NCBI GenBank assembly: GCA_017629035.1 | Contig: JAGBXX010000015.1 | Location: 91,739 to 155,738, forward strand | Source: Alistipes sp. | GTDB lineage: Bacteria > Bacteroidota > Bacteroidia > Bacteroidales > Rikenellaceae | Direction: 5' to 3' | Length of the DNA stretch: 64,000 nt | Shown here: one piece after another, positions 19,304-52,779 of the stretch | How positions within the stretch are numbered: the first letter of the stretch is position 1 | Layout: every line of letters starts with the position of its first letter | The notes under the pieces: generated by a model | Told to the model about the DNA's origin: nothing | The model's input: only the letters and a program-made list of their open reading frames with translations | Database searches by the model: none | Translations under genes and position numbers: made by a program

Positions 19304-21649
19304 ATGCGACACATTACTACACTATTAACCCTAATGGTGTTATTTGTCACCAGCCTATTTGCTACCCCAGCGGCAAAGGAGGGAATAACATCAACTATCA
19401 GCTACACAGCAACCGAGAAGCTAAAGTTCGAAAACAAGGAGGCATTTGGACTCAAAATCGCCGCACACAAGTACGATAAGGCGACTTTGGTGGGCACTAT
19501 TCAATTCGAGGGCGAAATTAAGACTATCGCAGAGAAGACATTCTACGGCATGCTATCACTTGAGAGCATAGCCTTTCCCGACTGCGTTACAACCATCGGC
19601 AAATCGGCACTAAGTGGATGCAAAAACCTCACAAACGTAACTTTGGGCAGTGGTGTTACAACACTACGCGAAGCAGCACTATTCGACTGCAACAAGCTTG
19701 AGAGCATAAACATTCCAAACGGTGTTACATCAATCGAGGCCAACGTATTCGGCCAATGCTCAAGCCTAAAGAGCGTAACACTGCCCGAGACATTAAAACA
19801 TATTGGATATAGAGCATTCTACAACTGCACAAAACTCAAAAAGATAACACTCCCTAATAGTGTAACAACCATTCAAAGTGAAGCATTTAGTGGCTGCGAA
19901 AATTTGATGAACATAACCATTCCAAATGGCATAAAGAAAATCGATTCAGAGACTTTCAGCAACTGTAAGAGATTGAGTAGCATTAACATTCCTAACAGCG
20001 TACTCACGATTGGAACTCACGCTTTCAAGAACTGCTCAGGCCTTAGAAACATCACTATCCCAAATAGTGTTACATCTGTTGCAAGCAACTCATTCTCTGG
20101 TTGTACAGGGCTCGAAAATGTCACAACCGACAGCAAGGCCTCGCTCAGCGCATTGGTACGACGCAACGATGTTGTGTACAACGACAAATTAGGATCTTTC
20201 AATCTTGTGTTGGGCGAGAGCATCAATGATATCGGAAGTACGTTTTTATCTTGCGGCAACGTCAAGAGCCTAATCCTCCCAAATAGCATTACATCGATTG
20301 GCAGTTATGCATTCAATGGTAGTAGCAGCATCAAAAGCATAACTATTCCAGACAGCGTAACCGAGATTGGCAACTGCGCATTCGAGTATTGCAACAACCT
20401 CACAACCGTAATTATCGGCAATGGAGTTCGATCGATTGGACTAAACGCATTTGAATACTGCAGTAATCTTACAAATATCACCATAGGTAAGAACCTAAAT
20501 ACCATCACTGACAACCCATTCTTTGGCTGCAATATCAAGAATGTTACCACAGACAACATAGAGGCTCTCAAGCACCTACTCAAAGAAGTATATAACTTCA
20601 AGATTAATGCCGTACTCGGTAATTGCATTACTGAGATTGCGGACGAATACTTCAAAGGCTACGAAAACCTATTGAGCATTGATATTCCTGGAAGTGTAAC
20701 ACGCATTGGTAAATACGCATTCCACGAGTGCGAAAATTTGCAACGAGTAACATTGCACGATGGCATCAAGGTTATTGATGAAAAAGCATTCTTGTTTTGC
20801 ATAAGCCTTGGTAGCATCTCTATTCCCGACTCTGTAACCACAATTGGAGCGGAGGCATTAGCTAATTGCTTTGAGTTAAAGAGCGTAAAACTTCCAGAAA
20901 ATTTGACAACAATCGAGTTTCATCTAGTTGGAGAGTGTTCTAACCTCAAACAGATAACTATTCCAGATAGTGTAACGAAGATTGAAGACTTGGCATTCGG
21001 CAAATGCAGTATGTTGGAGAGTGTCACCATGAGCAAGAACGTGACATATATTGGCAGTGAGGCATTTTTATGGTGTGAGAATCTACAAACCATAACTATA
21101 CCTAAGGGCGTTACCGACATCGGAGAAGGTGCGTTCTACGGCTGTACCTCACTTGCAAGTTTAACTATTCCCGATAGTGTAACAATGATTGAGGATAATG
21201 CATTTGCAAATTGCACCTCACTAACAAGTGTGACGATTCCCAATAGCGTAACAAAGATTAGAGATTATACATTTGCAGATTGCACCTCGCTGACAAGTGT
21301 GACGATTCCCAATAGTGTAACGACGATTGGAGATTGTGCATTTGAAAATTGCACCTCGCTGACAAGTGTAACGATTCCCAATAGCGTAACGACGATTGGA
21401 GTTTGTGCATTTGTATGGTGCGAGAAGCTACAAACTATAACTATACCAAAGGGTGTAACCTACATTGGAGATAGTGCATTCTCCGGTTGTGATGGCATGT
21501 CACACATCACCATGGAGTGCGCTGCGCCCCCTAAAATCAACGAGGATTCTATACCCGAAGAGACGACTATCTACGTTCCCGCAGGCAGCAAGGTAAAATA
21601 CCTAAATAGTATGTGGAGCAGATATAGAAATTACATACAAGAGCGATAG
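19304..21649 (+). CDS. secreted BspA-like leucine-rich repeat protein
   Basis: A 781-residue exported protein. A signal peptide (residues 1-20, FVTSLFAT) is followed by about 25 LRR_5 repeats of about 23 residues with consensus SVTTIGxxAFxxCxxLxxITIP. Such proteins are surface adhesins or binding proteins in Bacteroidetes. Two interruptions of the repeat pattern (near residues 285 and 415) are shared with related proteins and contain NVTTDS/NVTTDN. The end PEETTIYVPAGSKVKYLNSM is the usual cap of this repeat family, and no separate sorting domain is visible. Four 69-bp units near 21167-21442 are nearly identical, a sign of recent repeat expansion. The A/T content is higher than in the flanking enzymes. 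Confidence 0.9.
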   Translation: MRHITTLLTLMVLFVTSLFATPAAKEGITSTISYTATEKLKFENKEAFGLKIAAHKYDKATLVGTIQFEGEIKTIAEKTFYGMLSLESIAFPDCVTTIGKSALSGCKNLTNVTLGSGVTTLREAALFDCNKLESINIPNGVTSIEANVFGQCSSLKSVTLPETLKHIGYRAFYNCTKLKKITLPNSVTTIQSEAFSGCENLMNITIPNGIKKIDSETFSNCKRLSSINIPNSVLTIGTHAFKNCSGLRNITIPNSVTSVASNSFSGCTGLENVTTDSKASLSALVRRNDVVYNDKLGSFNLVLGESINDIGSTFLSCGNVKSLILPNSITSIGSYAFNGSSSIKSITIPDSVTEIGNCAFEYCNNLTTVIIGNGVRSIGLNAFEYCSNLTNITIGKNLNTITDNPFFGCNIKNVTTDNIEALKHLLKEVYNFKINAVLGNCITEIADEYFKGYENLLSIDIPGSVTRIGKYAFHECENLQRVTLHDGIKVIDEKAFLFCISLGSISIPDSVTTIGAEALANCFELKSVKLPENLTTIEFHLVGECSNLKQITIPDSVTKIEDLAFGKCSMLESVTMSKNVTYIGSEAFLWCENLQTITIPKGVTDIGEGAFYGCTSLASLTIPDSVTMIEDNAFANCTSLTSVTIPNSVTKIRDYTFADCTSLTSVTIPNSVTTIGDCAFENCTSLTSVTIPNSVTTIGVCAFVWCEKLQTITIPKGVTYIGDSAFSGCDGMSHITMECAAPPKINEDSIPEETTIYVPAGSKVKYLNSMWSRYRNYIQER
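21167..21442 (+). repeat. four tandem 69-bp units inside the LRR gene
   Basis: Units start at 21167, 21236, 21305 and 21374, each encoding 23 residues that begin IPNSVT or IPDSVT. The first three are close to identical and the fourth diverges in its second half. Confidence 0.85.
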
Positions 21650-24271: not shown

Positions 24272-24300
24272 AGAGGGTGTCCTGCGGGGCACCCTCTTTG
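24272..24300 (+). terminator. terminator of the biotin-dependent subunit gene
   Basis: Stem AGAGGGTG/CACCCTCT with an inner CC/GG pair and a short loop, followed by a short T run. Confidence 0.75.
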
Positions 24301-43831: not shown

Positions 43832-46800
43832 ATGAAACACTTAACATGGCTATTCACACTACTTATGCTCATTGCCACAAGCTCAACAGCGGCACTTGCG
43901 GCGAAGAAGGATAAGGTAAAGAGTGTGATAACATACCAAGCTATAGAGAAGCTCGAAGATCTCAACAACGACGCCTTTGACTGCAAAATCGCCCTACACA
44001 AGTTCGACAAGAAGAACGGAAAAGGAACAATCATATTCAAGGGTGCGCTCACAACCATTGGCACCGAAGCATTTATCAACCGCTCAACAATCACAAGCAT
44101 AACCATACCGGGAAGTGTTACGACGATTGGCGAGCACGCCTTCTCAGGCTGCACAGGCATCACCATAGCACCTATGAGTGAGAGCCTTACGGTAATTGAT
44201 AAGTATGCCTTTTCAGGTTGTACATCACTTAAATATGTTACCCTACCAGGTGGCTTGCAGAGAATCGACAACTCGGCTTTTCATGGTTGTGTTGAGCTAA
44301 GACAGATCACTATCCCCGACAGCGTGACATATCTCGACGAGCACGCCTTCAGCTCGTGCGACTGCCTCTACGACCTAACAATAGGCAAGACAATAGAGTG
44401 CATAGCCGACTTCAGCTCGACATTCCCAAGGGTTAAGAGGGTTAACCTGATGAGCACAATCAAGGAGATTGCGGCCAACAAATTTAATGGCTGCTCAAGC
44501 ATCAGTAGCATCACAATCCCTGATAGCGTAACTAAGATTGGCAAGGGTGCTTTTGCATGGTGCAAAGCGCTCACAAGCATCAAAATCCCATACACCGTAA
44601 CCGAGATTAGCGACTCTACGTTTGAGGGTTGCTCGCAGCTCTCAATGATTACTCTTGTCGAGGGTATCAAGTCAATAGGCAATAGAGCATTTGCCAAGTG
44701 TACATCATTGAAAACTATCGACTTGCCACTCACAGTTACTCGAATTGGCGACTACGCATTTACAGAGTGCTCGAAACTATCGTCGATCAAGTTGCTCGAT
44801 AGCGTAACAGAGGTTGGAGAGGGTGCATTCAAGCAGTCTGGACTAAGCTCTGCGACACTCTCAAATGGTATAACCGAGATCCGAAAGGAGACATTTGCCA
44901 ACTGCAGCAAACTCTCGAATATCGTAATCCCCGAGAGCATTATCTCGATTGGCCATAGCGCATTCTTTGGCAGTGGAGTTCAGAAGATTGAGATTCCTAA
45001 CAGCGTGACCGAGATTGCATCAAGAGCATTCTACGGCTGCAACAATCTCAAGCAGTTGACTCTGGGCACAGGTATCACAACGCTTGCACCTACGGCCTTT
45101 GAGAACTGCACACAGCTTGCGACGATGAGCATTGGCGAATTTATCGGAGTGATAGCTCAGAGCGACGAGTATAGATTCGACACCATCAGCGAGCTCATAA
45201 TCAGGGAGGGTATTACCGAGATTGACTCTAACACACTCAAGTCATTTAGCAAGCTCAAGCGCATAACACTTCCTGATAGCATTATTTCGATTGCCGACAA
45301 CACATTCAGCACTATTGCAGGGCTCGAATACCTCAAACTTGGCGAGGGAATAACATCGTTCAACACCTCAGCAATACAGGGTTGCGACAACATCAAAGAG
45401 GTTATGCTCAACGAGTATATCGAGGAGCTAATACTCGATGATACAATCAAATACGTATACGGCTCAAACAACACAGAGGAGGCTACAATAGAGGTGGCAG
45501 TGGAGACGGAAGCGACAGATACATATACGGACGAGGAGGTAGTGGAAGCTACAACCGAAGTTGCAGCTGAAGCAGTGGTAGTGGCAGTGACAGAAGAGAG
45601 CACGGGCGGATGCAACGAGAGTATCAATCTCGACATCTTCACCAACACCGAGTCACTCCAGAATATGGTATTGGGCGCTAGCACCGAGCGAGTTTATGCA
45701 TGTATCACACCAAGCATTACAATCAACGAGGGACTTGAGGCATTCGGATGCGCTGTACCCGAGAAGATAAACGTTGCAAAGCTCGCAACAATCTTCAGTA
45801 TTGACTATGTCTGCGATGGGGAAAATCAATATGGTTGTATTCTGCATACAGAGATCTACGACCTCAATGGCAAGCTACTGCTCGGTCGCAACCCTAAGAG
45901 CGTAAAGATACCTCAGGGAACAACAAGGATCGGCAACGGCGTATTCTATGACTGTACTAACCTCATAAGTGTAACCATTCCAAGCACAGTTACCGAGATT
46001 GGAGAAAGTGCATTCTACAACTGTAGCGCACTGACAAGCGTAGCACTTCCAAATGGTGTTAAAAGCATTGACGACAGCGCATTTAGCTACTGCTCAAAGC
46101 TCAAGAGCGTGACTATTCCAAATAGTGTGACCTACATTGGCGCGAGGGCATTCTACTCATGCTCAAGCCTTGCAAGTGTATCGCTACCAAAGGATATTTC
46201 AAGCATTAGACACCACACTTTCTACGGTTGTACGAGCCTCTCGAGCGTGACAATACCTAAGAACGTGTCAACAATCCAGAGCTACGCCTTCTACGGTTGC
46301 AGCAAGCTCAAGAGCATTACCATTCCATATAGCTACACCTCGCTTGGCGATTCGTGCTTCAGCGGCACATTCTACGACGCAGGCCACACGCCTATGAGCA
46401 AGGTGACTCAATCGAGCATCGAGGGTGCATACACTGGTAAGGCCAATGTCGAGGGTAAGTGGGTGGATATCCTACTCCTGCTCTTTGACGACGGCACATA
46501 TATGAAGAATAGAATCGACGGCTCGAGCGAGAAGCTATTCGAGGTGGGTAAATACACCATCAGCGGCAGCACCATAACACTCACGCTGGTAGGTAAGTTC
46601 AACCCAAACAAGTCGGAGTATGTGCGTATCTCGGGTGGTGAGACACTCTCGGTGAACACCAAGACTGGCGCCATAAACAACTACAGTAAGAAGCGCAAGC
46701 TCTGGAGCGACAACGACGAGTACTTCCGCATTACGGGTAATTGGACAAAGCCCTACAAGGAGTACACATCGAGCAACTTCAACGATCAGGATTGGTTCAC

Positions 46801-46852
46801 ATACCGAGTTTTGCAGTCACTCAAGAACAACGTGCAGGTTAGAATTTACTAA
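43832..46852 (+). CDS. secreted BspA-like LRR protein with two LRR blocks and a C-terminal beta domain
   Basis: A 1006-residue exported protein with a signal peptide 1-24 (TSSTAALAA). LRR_5 block 1 spans about 65-545. An acidic Thr/Val/Glu linker follows at about 548-590 (EEVVEATTEVAAEAVVVA), then a unique stretch with CNESINLDIF. LRR block 2 spans about 685-850. The last 140 residues leave the repeat pattern and read as a compact beta domain (GAYTGKANVEGKWVDILLLL ... YTISGSTITLTL), lipocalin- or META-like in look. It resembles the protein at 19304 in signal region and repeat type, so the two are probably paralogues. Surface binding is the likely role. Confidence 0.88.
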   Translation: MKHLTWLFTLLMLIATSSTAALAAKKDKVKSVITYQAIEKLEDLNNDAFDCKIALHKFDKKNGKGTIIFKGALTTIGTEAFINRSTITSITIPGSVTTIGEHAFSGCTGITIAPMSESLTVIDKYAFSGCTSLKYVTLPGGLQRIDNSAFHGCVELRQITIPDSVTYLDEHAFSSCDCLYDLTIGKTIECIADFSSTFPRVKRVNLMSTIKEIAANKFNGCSSISSITIPDSVTKIGKGAFAWCKALTSIKIPYTVTEISDSTFEGCSQLSMITLVEGIKSIGNRAFAKCTSLKTIDLPLTVTRIGDYAFTECSKLSSIKLLDSVTEVGEGAFKQSGLSSATLSNGITEIRKETFANCSKLSNIVIPESIISIGHSAFFGSGVQKIEIPNSVTEIASRAFYGCNNLKQLTLGTGITTLAPTAFENCTQLATMSIGEFIGVIAQSDEYRFDTISELIIREGITEIDSNTLKSFSKLKRITLPDSIISIADNTFSTIAGLEYLKLGEGITSFNTSAIQGCDNIKEVMLNEYIEELILDDTIKYVYGSNNTEEATIEVAVETEATDTYTDEEVVEATTEVAAEAVVVAVTEESTGGCNESINLDIFTNTESLQNMVLGASTERVYACITPSITINEGLEAFGCAVPEKINVAKLATIFSIDYVCDGENQYGCILHTEIYDLNGKLLLGRNPKSVKIPQGTTRIGNGVFYDCTNLISVTIPSTVTEIGESAFYNCSALTSVALPNGVKSIDDSAFSYCSKLKSVTIPNSVTYIGARAFYSCSSLASVSLPKDISSIRHHTFYGCTSLSSVTIPKNVSTIQSYAFYGCSKLKSITIPYSYTSLGDSCFSGTFYDAGHTPMSKVTQSSIEGAYTGKANVEGKWVDILLLLFDDGTYMKNRIDGSSEKLFEVGKYTISGSTITLTLVGKFNPNKSEYVRISGGETLSVNTKTGAINNYSKKRKLWSDNDEYFRITGNWTKPYKEYTSSNFNDQDWFTYRVLQSLKNNVQVRIY

Positions 46853-46958: not shown

Positions 46959-49424
46959 ATGAACATTTCATTCAACTGGCTTAAGCGATATCTCAAGGCC
47001 GACATTTCGGCAGAGCGCATGGCAGATATTCTCACCGAGCTTGGTCTCGAGGTCGAGGAGTTCGAGAAGATTGAGACCATCAAGGGTGGACTCAAGGGTG
47101 TTGTTGTGGGCGAGGTGCTCACATGCGAGGATCACCCAGACTCTGACCACCTTCACATCACCACTGTAGATGTTGGTCAGGAGGCACCACTCCAGATTGT
47201 GTGTGGCGCAGCCAACTGCCGCAAGGGTCTTAAGGTGATGTGTGCCACTGTGGGCTCAGTGTTGTACCCTATCGACTCGGACGAGGAGTTCAAAATCAAG
47301 CGCAGCAAGATTCGTGGCGTAGAGTCGCTCGGTATGCTCTGCGCTGAGGATGAGCTCGGCATTGGCCGCAACCACGAGGGTATCATGGAGCTCCCAGCAG
47401 AGGCCGTGGTGGGCACACCAGCCAAGGAGTACTTGCACATCGCCGACGACTATCTTATCGGCATCGGTCTTACACCTAACCGTGTAGATGCAGCGTCGCA
47501 CATCGGCGTGGCACGTGACCTTGCAGCATACCTCAAGAGCCGTGGCGAGAAGGTGGAGTTCACACTCCCTTCGGTCGATGACTTCAAGGTTGACGACACC
47601 TCACGCACCATTGAGGTAGAGGTGGTAAACAGCGAGGCAGCACCACGCTATGCAGGTATCACCGTGAGCGGCTGTAAGATTGCCCCATCGCCAGAGTGGA
47701 TGCAGAACGAGTTGCGTGCTGCGGGTATCAACCCTAAGAACAACCTCGTGGATATCACCAATTATGTTCTCTTTGAGCTTGGCCAGCCACTCCACGCCTT
47801 CGACGCAGATAAGATCGAGGGTGGTAAGGTTGTGGTACGCTCGGCTGTCGAGGGCGAGAAGTTTGTGACACTCGACGGCGTGGAGCGCACACTCACTGCC
47901 AACGACCTTATGATCTGCTCAGCAGAGCGTCCAATGTGTATCGCAGGTGTATACGGCGGTCAGGACTCTGGTATCAGCGACCAGACCGTGAACGTATTTA
48001 TCGAGAGCGCCTACTTCCACCCAGTGTGGGTGCGTAAGACAGCTAAGCGCTTTGGTCTTAACACCGACGCATCGTTCCGCTTTGAGCGTGGTATCGACCC
48101 AAATATCCAGGTATATGCACTCAAGCGTGCCGCAATGCTCATGCAGGAGTTGGCAGGTGGCCGCATAACATCTGAGATTATCGACATCAACCCTACCCCA
48201 GCTAAGCACTTCGAGTTCGACTTCTCTTTGGAGCGTGCTCGCAAGCTCATTGGCAAGGATATTCCTGAGAGCACATTCATGACTATTCTCGAGGCTCTCG
48301 ATGTCGAGGTGCGTGGTCGTGAGGGCGAGGTATTGCACGTTGCAGTACCACCATACCGTGTCGACGTGCAGCGCGAGGCAGACCTTGTGGAGGATGTTTT
48401 GCGTGTGTATGGCTACAACAACATTGAGATTTCAGACCATGTAAACTCTACTTTGTCGTACGCTCCAAAGCCAGACAAGGCTCGTCTTCAGAACGTAGCT
48501 TCGGACTTCCTCACATCGAACGGCTACACCGAGATCATGTCTAACTCTCTTACCAAGGCTTCGTACTACGAGGGCTCTACATCGTACCCTCAGGAGCGTT
48601 GTGTGAAGATCATCAACCCACTCTCTCAGGACCTCAACGTGATGCGCCAGACGCTCATGTTCAACGCACTGGAGGCTGTGGAGCTCAACGTGAACCGTCG
48701 TAACGCCAACCTTCGCATGTACGAGGTGGGTAACTGCTATGCGTTCAATGCTGAGAAGGCTCAGGAGGAGAACGTGCTCGCTAAGTACGAGGAGAGCTAC
48801 CGCATAGGTATCACCGTAACAGGTCTTGCTACACAGGCTTCGTGGAATAGTAAGGCTGAGGGCGCATCGTTCTTCACACTGCGTGCTGCGGTGGAGCGTC
48901 TGTTGAAGCGCTTTGGTATCGACATCTACTCATTGCAGTCTGAGAGCCTTGATTGCGACCTCTACGGCGACGCTATTGTATTCAAGCAGGGTCCTAAGGA
49001 GGTGTTGCGCATGGGTGTTGTATCGCCTATCGTGCGCAAGAAGTTCGACATCAAGCAGGAGGTATACTTCGCCGAGATCGACTTCGACCAGCTTATCAAG
49101 ATGACTAAGAAGGCTAAGGTGCAGTTCAAGGAGCTCTCTAAGTTCCCAGAGGTTAAGCGTGACCTCGCTCTGCTCGTAAACAAGAGCGTGTCGTTCTCAG
49201 AGTTGCGCTCTATCGCCTTTGCAACAGAGAAGAAGCTCCTGAAGTCAGTATCGCTCTTCGACGTATACGAGGGCGACAAGCTCCCTGAGGGCAAGAAGTC
49301 TTACGCCTTGAGCTTCATCCTCGAGGATAAGAACCAGACACTCACCGACAAGCAGATTGAGCGCACAATGGCCAACCTGCAGACACAGCTCGAGCAGAAG
49401 GCTGGTGCCGAGGTGCGTAAGTAA
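46959..49424 (+). CDS. pheT: phenylalanyl-tRNA synthetase beta subunit
   Basis: An 821-residue subunit that, with PheS, charges tRNA-Phe. The EMAP/tRNA-binding domain lies at about 45-150 (HPDSDHLHITTVDVG), then the B3/B4 editing region, B5, the catalytic-like core (HVNSTLSYAPKPDK onward), and the FDX-ACB anticodon-binding domain at the end (FKELSKFPEVKRDLALLV). An ATG at 46959 (MNISFNWLKRYL) is the family start, and the longer reading to 46908 lies on the leader. pheS is not adjacent. A perfect terminator follows. Confidence 0.97.
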   Translation: MNISFNWLKRYLKADISAERMADILTELGLEVEEFEKIETIKGGLKGVVVGEVLTCEDHPDSDHLHITTVDVGQEAPLQIVCGAANCRKGLKVMCATVGSVLYPIDSDEEFKIKRSKIRGVESLGMLCAEDELGIGRNHEGIMELPAEAVVGTPAKEYLHIADDYLIGIGLTPNRVDAASHIGVARDLAAYLKSRGEKVEFTLPSVDDFKVDDTSRTIEVEVVNSEAAPRYAGITVSGCKIAPSPEWMQNELRAAGINPKNNLVDITNYVLFELGQPLHAFDADKIEGGKVVVRSAVEGEKFVTLDGVERTLTANDLMICSAERPMCIAGVYGGQDSGISDQTVNVFIESAYFHPVWVRKTAKRFGLNTDASFRFERGIDPNIQVYALKRAAMLMQELAGGRITSEIIDINPTPAKHFEFDFSLERARKLIGKDIPESTFMTILEALDVEVRGREGEVLHVAVPPYRVDVQREADLVEDVLRVYGYNNIEISDHVNSTLSYAPKPDKARLQNVASDFLTSNGYTEIMSNSLTKASYYEGSTSYPQERCVKIINPLSQDLNVMRQTLMFNALEAVELNVNRRNANLRMYEVGNCYAFNAEKAQEENVLAKYEESYRIGITVTGLATQASWNSKAEGASFFTLRAAVERLLKRFGIDIYSLQSESLDCDLYGDAIVFKQGPKEVLRMGVVSPIVRKKFDIKQEVYFAEIDFDQLIKMTKKAKVQFKELSKFPEVKRDLALLVNKSVSFSELRSIAFATEKKLLKSVSLFDVYEGDKLPEGKKSYALSFILEDKNQTLTDKQIERTMANLQTQLEQKAGAEVRK

Positions 49425-49453: not shown

Positions 49454-49490
49454 AACTCCGTATGGATTGGTGTCCATACGGAGTTCTTTT
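49454..49490 (+). terminator. terminator of pheT
   Basis: A perfect 13-bp stem AACTCCGTATGGA/TCCATACGGAGTT, 6-nt loop, then CTTTTG. Confidence 0.9.
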
Positions 49491-49522: not shown

Positions 49523-50105
49523 GGGTATTAAAAATAATACCCTTGATTCACCCTTTTGTTATAATGCTCTCTAATGCCACACGGGTATTAAAAATAATAC
49601 CCGCACTACTTTAGAACACCCACCCTTTACTGCGCACCCAAACACTACACGGGTATTAAAATTAATACCCATGCTATTGGAGAGAAAGCATCCCAGCACT
49701 CAGTAAGACTCCTCCTAGGCTACGCGGGTATTAAAAATAATACCCACGCTACTTTGGTATACACACTCGCCCTTGCTACTAGGACACTCCACATTTCACG
49801 GGTATTAAAATTAATACCCGCATCTCCTTGGAGTTTGATTTTACCTATTATGACACCAGACAAGTCACACGGGTATTAAAAATAATACCCACGTTACTTT
49901 GGGTTACACACTCGCTCTTGCTACTAAGACACTCCACACTTCACGGGTATTAAAAATAATACCCGCACTACTTTAGAACAACCACCCTTTACTGCGCACC
50001 CCAACACTTCACGGGTATTAAAAATAATACCCACGCTATCGAATGGGCGCACTCATCATACTACTAAGACACCCGATAGCACCATGGGTATTAAAAATAA
50101 TACCC
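49523..50105. repeat. array of nine 20-bp palindromes
   Basis: Nine copies of gggtattaaaaataataccc start at 49523, 49583, 49651, 49726, 49800, 49871, 49945, 50013 and 50086. Each is an 8-bp inverted repeat around AAAA. Copies 3 and 5 have AATT in the centre, giving 9-bp arms with a 2-bp centre. Start-to-start distances are 60, 68, 75, 74, 71, 74, 68 and 73 bp. The spacers are 40-55 bp and several resemble one another. The array fills most of the 824-bp gap between pheT and the HTH gene, and no ORF of note lies within it. Function is unknown; a multi-site operator is the simplest idea. Confidence 0.97.
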
Positions 50106-50247: not shown

Positions 50248-50478
50248 ATGGAGAAACATGCAACTAAGTTCACATTGGAGAGAAATCGCATAGGCGAGCT
50301 ATTCAACGCCTTTCCTGAGCTGAATGTAAGGCAGGTGGCTCGTGCCATGGGCATAAACGAGACTCTAATGCAACAATATGTGAATGGCGCAAAGAAGCCG
50401 ACGTATGAACGCAGAATGGAGATAGAGAGATACATTCACAAGCTCGGGCGCAGGCTCACGGAGGTTACACTCGAATAG
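50248..50478 (+). CDS. small HTH (XRE/Cro-like) DNA-binding protein
   Basis: A 76-residue basic protein with a helix-turn-helix at about residues 26-48: LNVRQVARAMGINETLMQQY, in which the RQVARAMG helix precedes the recognition helix ETLMQQYVNG. It resembles the Cro/C1 class. There is no signal, partner domain or neighbouring toxin gene. It is alone on its transcript, with a good promoter upstream and a hairpin terminator downstream. It follows the nine-palindrome array, so it is a candidate for the protein that binds those sites. That is inference from position only. Confidence 0.75.
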   Translation: MEKHATKFTLERNRIGELFNAFPELNVRQVARAMGINETLMQQYVNGAKKPTYERRMEIERYIHKLGRRLTEVTLE

Positions 50479-50721: not shown

Positions 50722-52779
50722 ATGACAAACGGAAAAATTGGGGTAACAACCGAAAACATCTTCCCCGTAATCAAGAAGTTCCTATACTCGGACCACGAGA
50801 TATTTCTTCGTGAGCTGGTATCAAATGCCGTAGACGCTACACAGAAGCTCAAGACCCTCCACTCTAAGGGTGAGGCCGAGGGCGAGCTGGGCGACATGAC
50901 AATCCACATCGACGTTGATAGCGAGGCAAAGACCCTTACAATCACCGACCGTGGTATCGGTATGAGCGCCGAGGAGGTAGACCGATATATCAACCAGATA
51001 GCATTCTCGGGTGCCGAGGAGTTCATGGCCAAGTACAAGGATCAGGCTATCATAGGCCACTTCGGCCTCGGCTTCTACTCATCGTTCATGGTTGCCGACA
51101 AGGTGGAGATATTCACACAGTCGTATCGCCACGAGGCTAATAGCGTGCACTGGAGCTGCAACGGCTCGCCAGAGTTTGAGATGGAGGAGATTGAGGAGAA
51201 GCTACCTCGAGGTACACGCATAGTGCTCCACATTTCTGAAGAGAGTCTTCAGTTTACCAAGCGTGAAGAGATAGCCTCGCTGCTCAACAAGTACTGCCAC
51301 TTCCTCCCTGTGCCTATCGCCTTTGGCAAGAAGCAGGTATGGAAAGAGGGCAAGTATGTTGACACCGAGGAGGATAACATCATCAACAACGTGACACCTC
51401 TCTGGACACGCAAGCCGGCCGACATCACAGAGCAGGAGTACAAGGAGTTCTACGCCGACCTATACCCAGGAAGCGAGGAGCCACTGTTCTACATCCACCT
51501 CAACATCGACTACCCATTTAACCTCACGGGAATACTCTACTTCCCTAAGCTGTTGAACAACTTCGAGATTCAGAAGAACAAGATTCAGCTCTACTGCAAC
51601 CAGGTATTCGTAACTGACGAGGTGCGTGGCATTGTTCCCGAGTATCTCACACTCCTTCACGGCGTTATCGACTCTCCCGACATCCCTCTCAACGTGTCAC
51701 GCAGCTACTTGCAGAGCGATGCTAACGTGAAGAAGATCTCGAGCTACATCACTCGAAAGGTTGCCGACCGTCTTCAGGAGCTATTCAACACCATGCGCCC
51801 TGACTACGAGCAGAAGTGGGACGACCTCAAGATATTTATCCAGTATGGTATGCTAACAGACGAGAAGTTTGCCGACAAGGCCACTAACTTCATGCTCTGG
51901 AAGAGTATCGAGGGTAAGTACTACACCTCTGCGGAGTATGTCGAGAAGATTCGTGAGGCACAGACCGACAAGGATGGCTTCGTTGTAGTGCTCTATGTTG
52001 ACGACGTTGTTGGCAAGGACTCATTTGTGGAGGCAGCCAAGGCTAAGGGCTACGACATCCTCGAGATGAACGGACAGCTCGACAGCCACTATATCCAGTA
52101 CTTCGAGTCACGCAACGAGAAGGTTCGCTTTGTGCGTGTAGACTCCGATGTAGTCGACAACCTCATCCGCAAGGAGCAGAAGCACACCATGTCGCTCTCG
52201 ACAGAGCAACAGGATATCATGCGCCCCGTGTTCGAGAGCCAGATGCCTACCGACGAGAAGATACACTACCACGTATCGTTCGAGGCTATGGCCGAGGATG
52301 CAGCGCCCGTTGTCATTACGCAGAATGAGTTTATGCGCCGCATGAAGGATATGGCAGCGACCTCGGGTGGCGAGATGAGCCGCTTCTACAGAGATATGCC
52401 CGATAACTTCACAATCACCGTGAACGGCAACCACCCTATCGTCCTCGACATCCTCACTGAGGTGGAGCACGAGTATGGCGACAAGCTACGCACCATGGGC
52501 AAGAAGATCACTGCTGCAGAGCAGGAGGAGAGCCGCTTTGAGGAGGTTATCAAGGATAAGAAGGATGATGAGCTCACCGCTGAGGAGCGTGATATGCGTG
52601 AGTCGCTATCGAAGCGCATTGCGGAGCTACGCACCGAGCGTGATAGCCGTCTTGAGGAGATTGGTAGCAAGAACCGCAAGGTACGCCAAATCATCGACCT
52701 CGCACTGCTCTCTAATGGCATGCTCAAGGGCAAGAACCTCACAGAGTTCATCCAGCGCAGCATCTCGCTTATCGAGTAG
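50722..52779 (+). CDS. htpG: molecular chaperone HtpG (Hsp90)
   Basis: A 685-residue chaperone with a GHKL ATPase domain. ELVSNAVDA (catalytic Glu and the Asn of the ATP site), DRGIGMSAEEV and GHFGLGFYSSFMV are all in place. The middle domain has PLNVSRSYLQSD, and the C-terminal dimerisation domain is rich in charged residues (ERDMRESLSKRIAELRTERD). It is longer than the E. coli protein, mainly at the C-terminal end. It is a single-gene unit with a possible stress promoter and a shared terminator with capA. Confidence 0.96.
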   Translation: MTNGKIGVTTENIFPVIKKFLYSDHEIFLRELVSNAVDATQKLKTLHSKGEAEGELGDMTIHIDVDSEAKTLTITDRGIGMSAEEVDRYINQIAFSGAEEFMAKYKDQAIIGHFGLGFYSSFMVADKVEIFTQSYRHEANSVHWSCNGSPEFEMEEIEEKLPRGTRIVLHISEESLQFTKREEIASLLNKYCHFLPVPIAFGKKQVWKEGKYVDTEEDNIINNVTPLWTRKPADITEQEYKEFYADLYPGSEEPLFYIHLNIDYPFNLTGILYFPKLLNNFEIQKNKIQLYCNQVFVTDEVRGIVPEYLTLLHGVIDSPDIPLNVSRSYLQSDANVKKISSYITRKVADRLQELFNTMRPDYEQKWDDLKIFIQYGMLTDEKFADKATNFMLWKSIEGKYYTSAEYVEKIREAQTDKDGFVVVLYVDDVVGKDSFVEAAKAKGYDILEMNGQLDSHYIQYFESRNEKVRFVRVDSDVVDNLIRKEQKHTMSLSTEQQDIMRPVFESQMPTDEKIHYHVSFEAMAEDAAPVVITQNEFMRRMKDMAATSGGEMSRFYRDMPDNFTITVNGNHPIVLDILTEVEHEYGDKLRTMGKKITAAEQEESRFEEVIKDKKDDELTAEERDMRESLSKRIAELRTERDSRLEEIGSKNRKVRQIIDLALLSNGMLKGKNLTEFIQRSISLIE

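Follow-up and report, generated by a model that had tools for sequence, protein, structure and literature searches.

Nine copies of a 20-bp palindrome precede a small HTH gene in the window, a stretch of 64,000 nucleotides from Alistipes sp., and they are very probably binding or operator sites of this adjacent protein. Judged from its sequence relatives, the HTH would be derived from an antitoxin, with an operator that was multiplied and dispersed. In the mechanism that we propose, an HTH dimer would read a pair of 8-bp half-sites, GGGTATTA, separated by an A-tract with a constant length of 4 bp; all members of the family would share the GGGT end, and the specificity would reside in the four inner bases, read by residues of the recognition helix. 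Because the array lies upstream of its own gene, it most likely acts in the first place as an autoregulatory multi-site operator. As for the origin, a DhiTA-type DUF4160-DUF2442-HTH antitoxin would have lost its antitoxin half and its single operator would have multiplied into arrays. In several relatives, as well as for a second HTH of the same genome (L292), arrays would also have reached further intergenic regions, where they lie 3' of genes more often than 5' of them.

The palindrome array and the HTH gene of the window

The features of the locus are as follows.

46959..49424, plus strand: pheT, the upstream neighbour, with its ATG at 46959 (the ORF list starts at a TTG, 46908)
49454..49485, plus strand: terminator-like hairpin 3' of pheT, 14 pairs
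49523..49542, plus strand: palindrome 1, GGGTATTA-AAAA-TAATACCC
49583..49602, plus strand: palindrome 2
49651..49670, plus strand: palindrome 3, centre AAAT
49726..49745, plus strand: palindrome 4
49800..49819, plus strand: palindrome 5, centre AAAT
49871..49890, plus strand: palindrome 6
49945..49964, plus strand: palindrome 7
50013..50032, plus strand: palindrome 8
50086..50105, plus strand: palindrome 9, ending 142 bp 5' of the HTH start codon
50200..50230, plus strand: candidate promoter of the HTH gene, TTGG-N19-TACCTTTG, found by eye
50248..50478, plus strand: solo HTH gene, 76 aa, the proposed palindrome reader
50722..52779, plus strand: htpG (HSP90), the downstream neighbour

From start to start, the nine palindromes follow each other at steps of 60, 68, 75, 74, 71, 74, 68 and 73 bp, and none of 100 dinucleotide shuffles gave a match to the array palindrome. 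Both 8-bp arms are identical in 9/9 copies. The flanks vary, with a mean major-base fraction of 0.58 over the 30 columns before and the 30 after, and the spacers have a mean pairwise identity of 0.52 (range 0.34-0.94). One base of the central four is changed in the copies at 49651 and 49800 (AAAA to AAAT), and the symmetry is kept since this change lengthens the arms to 9 bp. A preliminary description of this DNA had reported nine copies at 60-75 bp steps, perfect arms with variable flanks and two variants that keep the symmetry, and all of this is confirmed by the values above. It had also raised a random scatter of the 20-mer through the genome, and the 20-mer is not scattered: the source genome (G000; 41 contigs, 84.7% complete) contains one further copy outside the array within up to 3 mismatches (C14:1708), which makes 10 forward matches against 0 for the reversed control. 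In the rest of the window, GGGT-N12-ACCC occurs only at 24275. No tRNA was found. Elsewhere in the window there are 69-bp tandem repeats (21146-21480) and a 1006-aa ORF with repeated units that look leucine-rich by eye (43832-46852).

The gap from the pheT stop to the HTH start is 823 bp, and the palindrome nearest to the HTH gene does not overlap the likely promoter, which resembles the Bacteroides consensus, TTTG / TAnnTTTG. The solo HTH gene is under purifying selection, with dN 0.046 and dS 0.543 against the orthologue in G017 and dN 0.040 and dS 0.360 against L117. At E 0.001, Pfam gave no match for the window protein. When solo HTH relatives were scored on HTH_3 (PF01381), L268 was above the cut-off (27.5 vs 23 bits) and the others were below it or had no match. 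The matches to NCBIfam and PADLOC profiles were all weak (best E 0.0065 and 0.005), and the best match among solved structures had an E of 0.12. No copy of the HTH was found in plasmids at E 0.01, and the viral contigs yielded one HTH-like locus, of 39% identity and without a near-perfect palindrome of the window kind. In phages, 9 records have an HTH-like protein, with an identity of at most 46%; the Porphyromonas and Bacteroides phage proteins (H1-H6) are 36-46% identical to the HTH and some of them are annotated as HicB-like.

A second HTH-array pair exists in the same genome (G000:C18; L292, 51000-62000), where 26 palindromes of the type GGGT-TACAAAAA(C/A)GTA-ACCC flank a 71-aa HTH and two neighbouring genes. 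The whole genome has 67 matches to GGGTNAC-N6-GTNACCC, 26 of them around this HTH, and the control has 0. Therefore, two HTHs with different sites are present in one cell.

Solo HTHs, their palindromes and the covariation of the two

The genome sets used for comparison are samples of larger groups, with 121 genomes for the genus, 250 for the family and 344 for the order. The exact 20-mer was found in 103 stretches of named genomes; among the 80 matches listed, 74 are from 'Alistipes sp.' MAGs from ruminant gut, 1 is from Tidjanibacter and the remaining five are isolated hits in unrelated taxa. Within 3 mismatches it is present in 44/121 genus genomes, the reversed control giving 1-3 matches in 16/121. 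The more general pattern GGGTA-N10-TACCC has 0 to 76 copies per genome, and its reversed control never exceeds 6 in the 121 genus genomes. Across this palindrome family the GGGT/ACCC ends and the length of 20 bp are constant, and the inner arm varies by lineage and locus (ATTA, ATCG, ATAC, AACC, AGGT, AGTA and others). The spacing is also fixed: for GGGTATTA/TAATACCC pairs 0-30 bp apart it is exactly 4 bp in 368/369 (overlapping loci are counted more than once here), two other palindrome classes have the 4-bp arm spacing in 31/31 and 21/21, and GGGTTAC/GTAACCC pairs have the matching 6-bp spacing in 60/66. At the loci fetched by the 20-mer, ORFs of at least 150 aa contain 12/270 palindromes. 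Hybrid sites, whose two half-sites differ, are found in G004, G058 and G072, for example AGGC-AAAA-GTAT. Palindromes that pair an AGGT or AGGC half-site with a GTAT half-site were seen at L291, L293, L294 and L333 (G040, G004, G058, G072); some hybrid palindromes stand beside an HTH gene, and they are possible heterodimer sites. A mosaic intergenic repeat around 'gattgccacgggcaaagccctcgcaatgacg' accompanies the arrays at L122, L128, L131 and L161, all from one Water_deer_Colon-4 MAG.

We defined a solo HTH as a profile match whose domain is not preceded by 45 or more residues of open frame that includes a start. The threshold was E 1e-20 for the count of 33 proteins, 1e-24 for the covariation and the counts of longer relatives, and 1e-25, applied by hand, for the genome tally. 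A protein search with the window HTH gave relatives in 28/121 genus genomes; a profile of 21 relatives gave matches in 30/121, with the short solo form in 16 (E 1e-25 or better). At least two GGGT-N12-ACCC sites lie within 2 kb of 31/33 distinct solo HTHs from the genus and the family, and 206 such sites surround the 33, compared with 0 for the reversed control in the same stretches. The palindromes did not select these 33 proteins, because the protein and profile searches also returned all of them. The preliminary description had named an HTH gene kept without such palindromes as a counter-case; of the 33, two have fewer than two sites within 2 kb, and both lie near contig ends. L174 is separated from the contig end by 194 bp, and for L335 the upstream DNA amounts to about 395 bp, with no site in the 2.4 kb examined. 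In addition, G090 has a solo HTH with the same sequence as one of G072; it is located at the end of a contig, and the 1.8 kb examined there contain no palindromes.

At the level of whole genomes, at least 5 copies of GGGTA-N10-TACCC occur in 15/16 genomes with a solo HTH and in 15/105 without one (hand tally; Fisher p 4e-10, a value inflated because the genomes are related). The sixteenth solo-HTH genome (G051) has 19 palindromes of the TACA type. The 15 genomes without a detected solo HTH carry 5-53 palindromes, and two of them, G104 and G039, are 97-98% complete; these genomes count against a strict need for the HTH. In the parts examined of the arrays of G104, G064, G039, G043, G037 and G069, no window-type HTH was found beside them. 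G104, G064, G039 and G043, which have no detected solo HTH, are rich in AACC/AGTA or ATAC/ATAT palindromes. In these four genomes the palindrome reader is missing or unlike the window HTH family. A search for solo HTHs outside the family, over the 344 order genomes at E 1e-18, gave matches only in the window's own genome and in two others, where the open frames are 148-153 aa.

The array travels with the HTH and not with the neighbouring genes. The order pheT-array-HTH-htpG is found in the window, G017 and L117, the order array-HTH-groEL, with rarA further off, in G004, G034 and G040, and the order array-HTH-lepA in G040 and G058 (rarA was assigned by eye; for groEL, lepA and htpG the assignment comes from Pfam, at a single locus for each). 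Among 30 pheT loci, for which as much as 1.5 kb 3' of the gene was examined (less than 0.7 kb in four of them), more than one palindrome was present only in G000 and G017, both with the HTH further on. In G004, G024 and G034 the solo HTH is elsewhere and there is no array at pheT. Chaperone or translation genes lie 3' of some solo HTHs, namely htpG, groEL, dnaK (with one gene between) and lepA, and other solo HTHs differ; the loci of these neighbours are window 50722-52779, L220 6346-7974, L293 6466-8361 and L219 3242-5032. In G017 (L221 5093-6538), four small minus-strand ORFs, hydrophobic by eye, separate two halves of the array, which in the window is continuous.

The sites also change together with the proteins. 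The distance between HTHs is correlated with the distance between half-sites, with a Mantel r of 0.60 (N 27, p 0.0001) that stays at 0.57 after thinning to 20 HTHs (p 0.0001), both values being inflated by the relatedness of the genomes. The covariation listing comprised 31 HTHs, one of which (L269) is a DUF2442 protein. When the 57 variable columns were ranked by their link to the site beyond the overall distance, T39, N46, E38 and Q42 took ranks 1-4, all within the segment GINETLMQQYVNG, and these columns are presumed to be in or beside the recognition helix. We place GINETLMQQYVNG opposite the recognition helix of the 434 repressor, so that 38, 39, 42 and 43 would correspond to its base-contact positions; however, column 43 ranks 54 of 57, against the expected DNA contact. 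In all proteins with K39 that entered the test (4/4) site base 6 is G, against 0/25 without K. The four K39 proteins represent three backgrounds, including L268 versus its sister L267 in another genus, and the K39 proteins L333 and L334, which were outside the test, have half-sites beginning with AG among their sites. Similarly, TACA accompanies the combination of R42 and Q43, both in clade F (L292, L186, L187) and in L265, which is from another genus. Mixed, less symmetric sites are found beside some HTHs (L177, L259, L180, L337).

Toxin-antitoxin relatives and known systems

The longer HTH relatives include DUF2442 proteins in which the HTH is C-terminal (4/5 assayed by domain search), and a DUF4160 gene was present 5' of them in 3/3 cases checked. 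Within 800 bp upstream, one near-perfect palindrome was found for 9/18 longer relatives, all fetched by protein and each with at least 600 bp of upstream DNA. Relative to the HTH domain, seven of these palindromes are at -503 to -523, one is at -264 and one, that of L255, is at -724 and is perhaps unrelated. For L269, L188, L195 and L196 the palindrome lies directly 5' of the DUF4160 start, and that of L269, GGGTATTAAAAATAATACCT, agrees with the window palindrome in 19/20 bases. The other 9/18 have no palindrome, including L193, in which the DUF4160 gene looks intact. Since the longer relatives include TA operons, and one of these has a palindrome so close to that of the window, it seems that the operator and the DNA-binding domain of a TA system turned into a free-standing protein with amplified, dispersed arrays. 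We infer that the solo HTH may correspond to the DNA-binding part of such an antitoxin (DUF4160-DUF2442-HTH), with the array as its multiplied operator; the reverse direction, from a solo HTH to a TA operon, may instead apply.

The layout of the longer relatives is shared with DhiTA (DUF4160/DUF2442), a type II TA system (PMC8198452); in Dickeya, the antitoxin and the TA complex repress the dhiTA promoter (PMC8198452). Unlike DhiTA, the window HTH (76 aa) has no DUF2442 part, its neighbours are pheT and htpG with no DUF4160 gene, and there are nine sites instead of the single palindrome of the operons. An HTH with a palindrome of the same kind is found in the window as well; this is a trait of the Bacteroidales DhiTA-like relatives and not of the published family.

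Other systems with multiplied sites were compared. REP/RAYT (REPtron) and CGTC palindromes are also short, present in multiple copies and often 3' of genes, and the gene of the protein tied to them is flanked by copies (PMC3733652). Here the partner is a non-catalytic HTH, no Y1 transposase was found in 22 genomes (0/22, the same search giving matches in 5/14 control genomes), and the palindrome units have no GTAG tag at the hairpin foot, so a REP/RAYT system is not supported. In cluster A mycobacteriophages, the repressor motif varies with the repressor and many stoperators are dispersed (PMC9283540, PMC6550527). An HTH repressor, many dispersed sites per genome and a motif that follows the protein are thus common to both. 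By contrast, the present system is chromosomal, with a small one-domain protein and symmetric 20-bp sites in arrays, whereas the stoperators are single, asymmetric 13-bp sites.

ParR-parC and TubR-tubC combine a small DNA-binding protein with a repeat array 5' of its gene. The system differs from them in that no NTPase was seen alongside, the sites are dispersed, and the contigs are chromosomal, with the loci among housekeeping genes; a plasmid-type partition system was set aside on the finding that no motor NTPase gene lies beside the HTH at the loci examined. A CRISPR array does not fit well either, as the spacers are not unrelated and some are near-copies (up to 0.94 identity). The open-access literature, a scope that leaves out most subscription journals, gave no description of the HTH-array system, and the available part of PMC5771137 does not describe it.

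Placement, spread and possible roles of the arrays

Three roles were offered in the preliminary description. The multi-site operator and its tie to the HTH are supported by the co-localisation, the covariation and the palindromes at TA promoters. Another of these roles, that the palindromes act as a string of RNA hairpins, is not supported and we regard it as highly improbable. The array RNA folds stably (z -7.07), but any row of perfect palindromes would fold so; the inner arms covary between genomes, but the site changes follow HTH residues. The A-loop orientation leans to the sense strand, yet G-T versus A-C mispairs in that orientation stand at 160:125 over 577 distinct palindromes, at most a weak strand bias (p 0.04, uncorrected and from non-independent sites). 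Besides, poorly pairing hybrid sites exist, some beside HTH genes, single sites stand 5' of TA operons, and there is no match to an Rfam family at the gathering score.

For the window array we place autoregulation first, and for the dispersed copies we put selfish or neutral spread slightly ahead of road-blocks and nucleoid sites. It is quite possible, though short of probable, that the dispersed arrays are selfish or neutral repeats from the HTH operator, carried in intergenic mosaic blocks and with no host function beyond local autoregulation. Their copy number is patchy (0 to 76 per genome, as above), palindrome-carrying blocks (about 150-630 bp) at different loci of the same genome are 75-97% similar (matches of more than 1 kb were left out, and some may be overlapping stretches), and a two-palindrome unit with 51-bp spacing recurs at six loci of one genome, which indicates that the dispersed arrays spread by copying. 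The same reading is favoured by contigs that start inside arrays (e.g. G040 C7, C8, C10, C11; G000 C5) and by the gaps shared between species: two gaps common to G104 and G064 have palindromes of the same class in both, and in the one aligned the palindromes are identical in 26/80 bases compared with 460/959 elsewhere, so they are not better kept than their surroundings. Nevertheless, no mobilising enzyme was found (Y1_Tnp, the only one searched, in 0/22 genomes), and the window arms are kept while the spacers vary. Placement bears on the rather doubtful alternative that the arrays are road-blocks or insulators, at which an HTH bound behind genes would stop read-through in the manner of mycobacteriophage stoperators. 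Away from HTH genes, gaps with dispersed palindromes are richer in convergent (22/52 vs 31/147 other gaps, p 0.006) and poorer in divergent ones (4/52 vs 46/147, p 0.0006); this comparison used loci retrieved with the exact 20-mer, without five from unrelated taxa, counted each gap once and took no account of ORFs shorter than 120 aa. Phage repressors do end elongation at many dispersed sites (PMC9283540, PMC6550527). On the other hand, selection against promoter insertion would yield the same placement, the A-loop orientation to transcription is unclear (18 sense and 8 antisense in tandem gaps), and a terminator-like hairpin already precedes the window array. That the arrays are nucleoid or segregation sites, with the HTH as a small organiser protein like those of ParR-parC or TubR-tubC or like a nucleoid protein, would fit a small DNA-binding protein with an array 5' of its own gene and the many arrays of some genomes; we consider it unlikely, given that no NTPase lies beside the HTH, with neighbours that are pheT and htpG in the window and groEL, lepA and others elsewhere, that the window class is present in G000 as a single array plus one lone site and the second HTH there has its own class, and that the solo HTH occurs in only 16/121 genus genomes.

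Returning to the preferred reading of antitoxin-derived HTHs with multiplied operators, both protein-operator pairs and dispersed repressor sites are already known kinds of system. What is new, as far as we have seen, is a set of radiating antitoxin-derived HTHs with amplified, dispersed operator arrays on the chromosome. We would suggest, tentatively, that the Rikenellaceae have a chromosomal system of such HTHs with orthogonal specificities, each maintaining and reading its own genome-wide arrays, so that at least two parallel networks in one genome might insulate transcription or fold the nucleoid. Some 30 matched HTHs and palindromes form a natural set, several genomes having more than one, and this set is a ready test of specificity change in a minimal HTH, beginning with position 39 and site base 6. 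The system further points to a possible route from a TA operator to dispersed chromosomal repeats, an origin of bacterial intergenic palindromes for which a transposase may not be required. Unexplained arrays in ruminant gut genomes also gain a concrete candidate partner protein.
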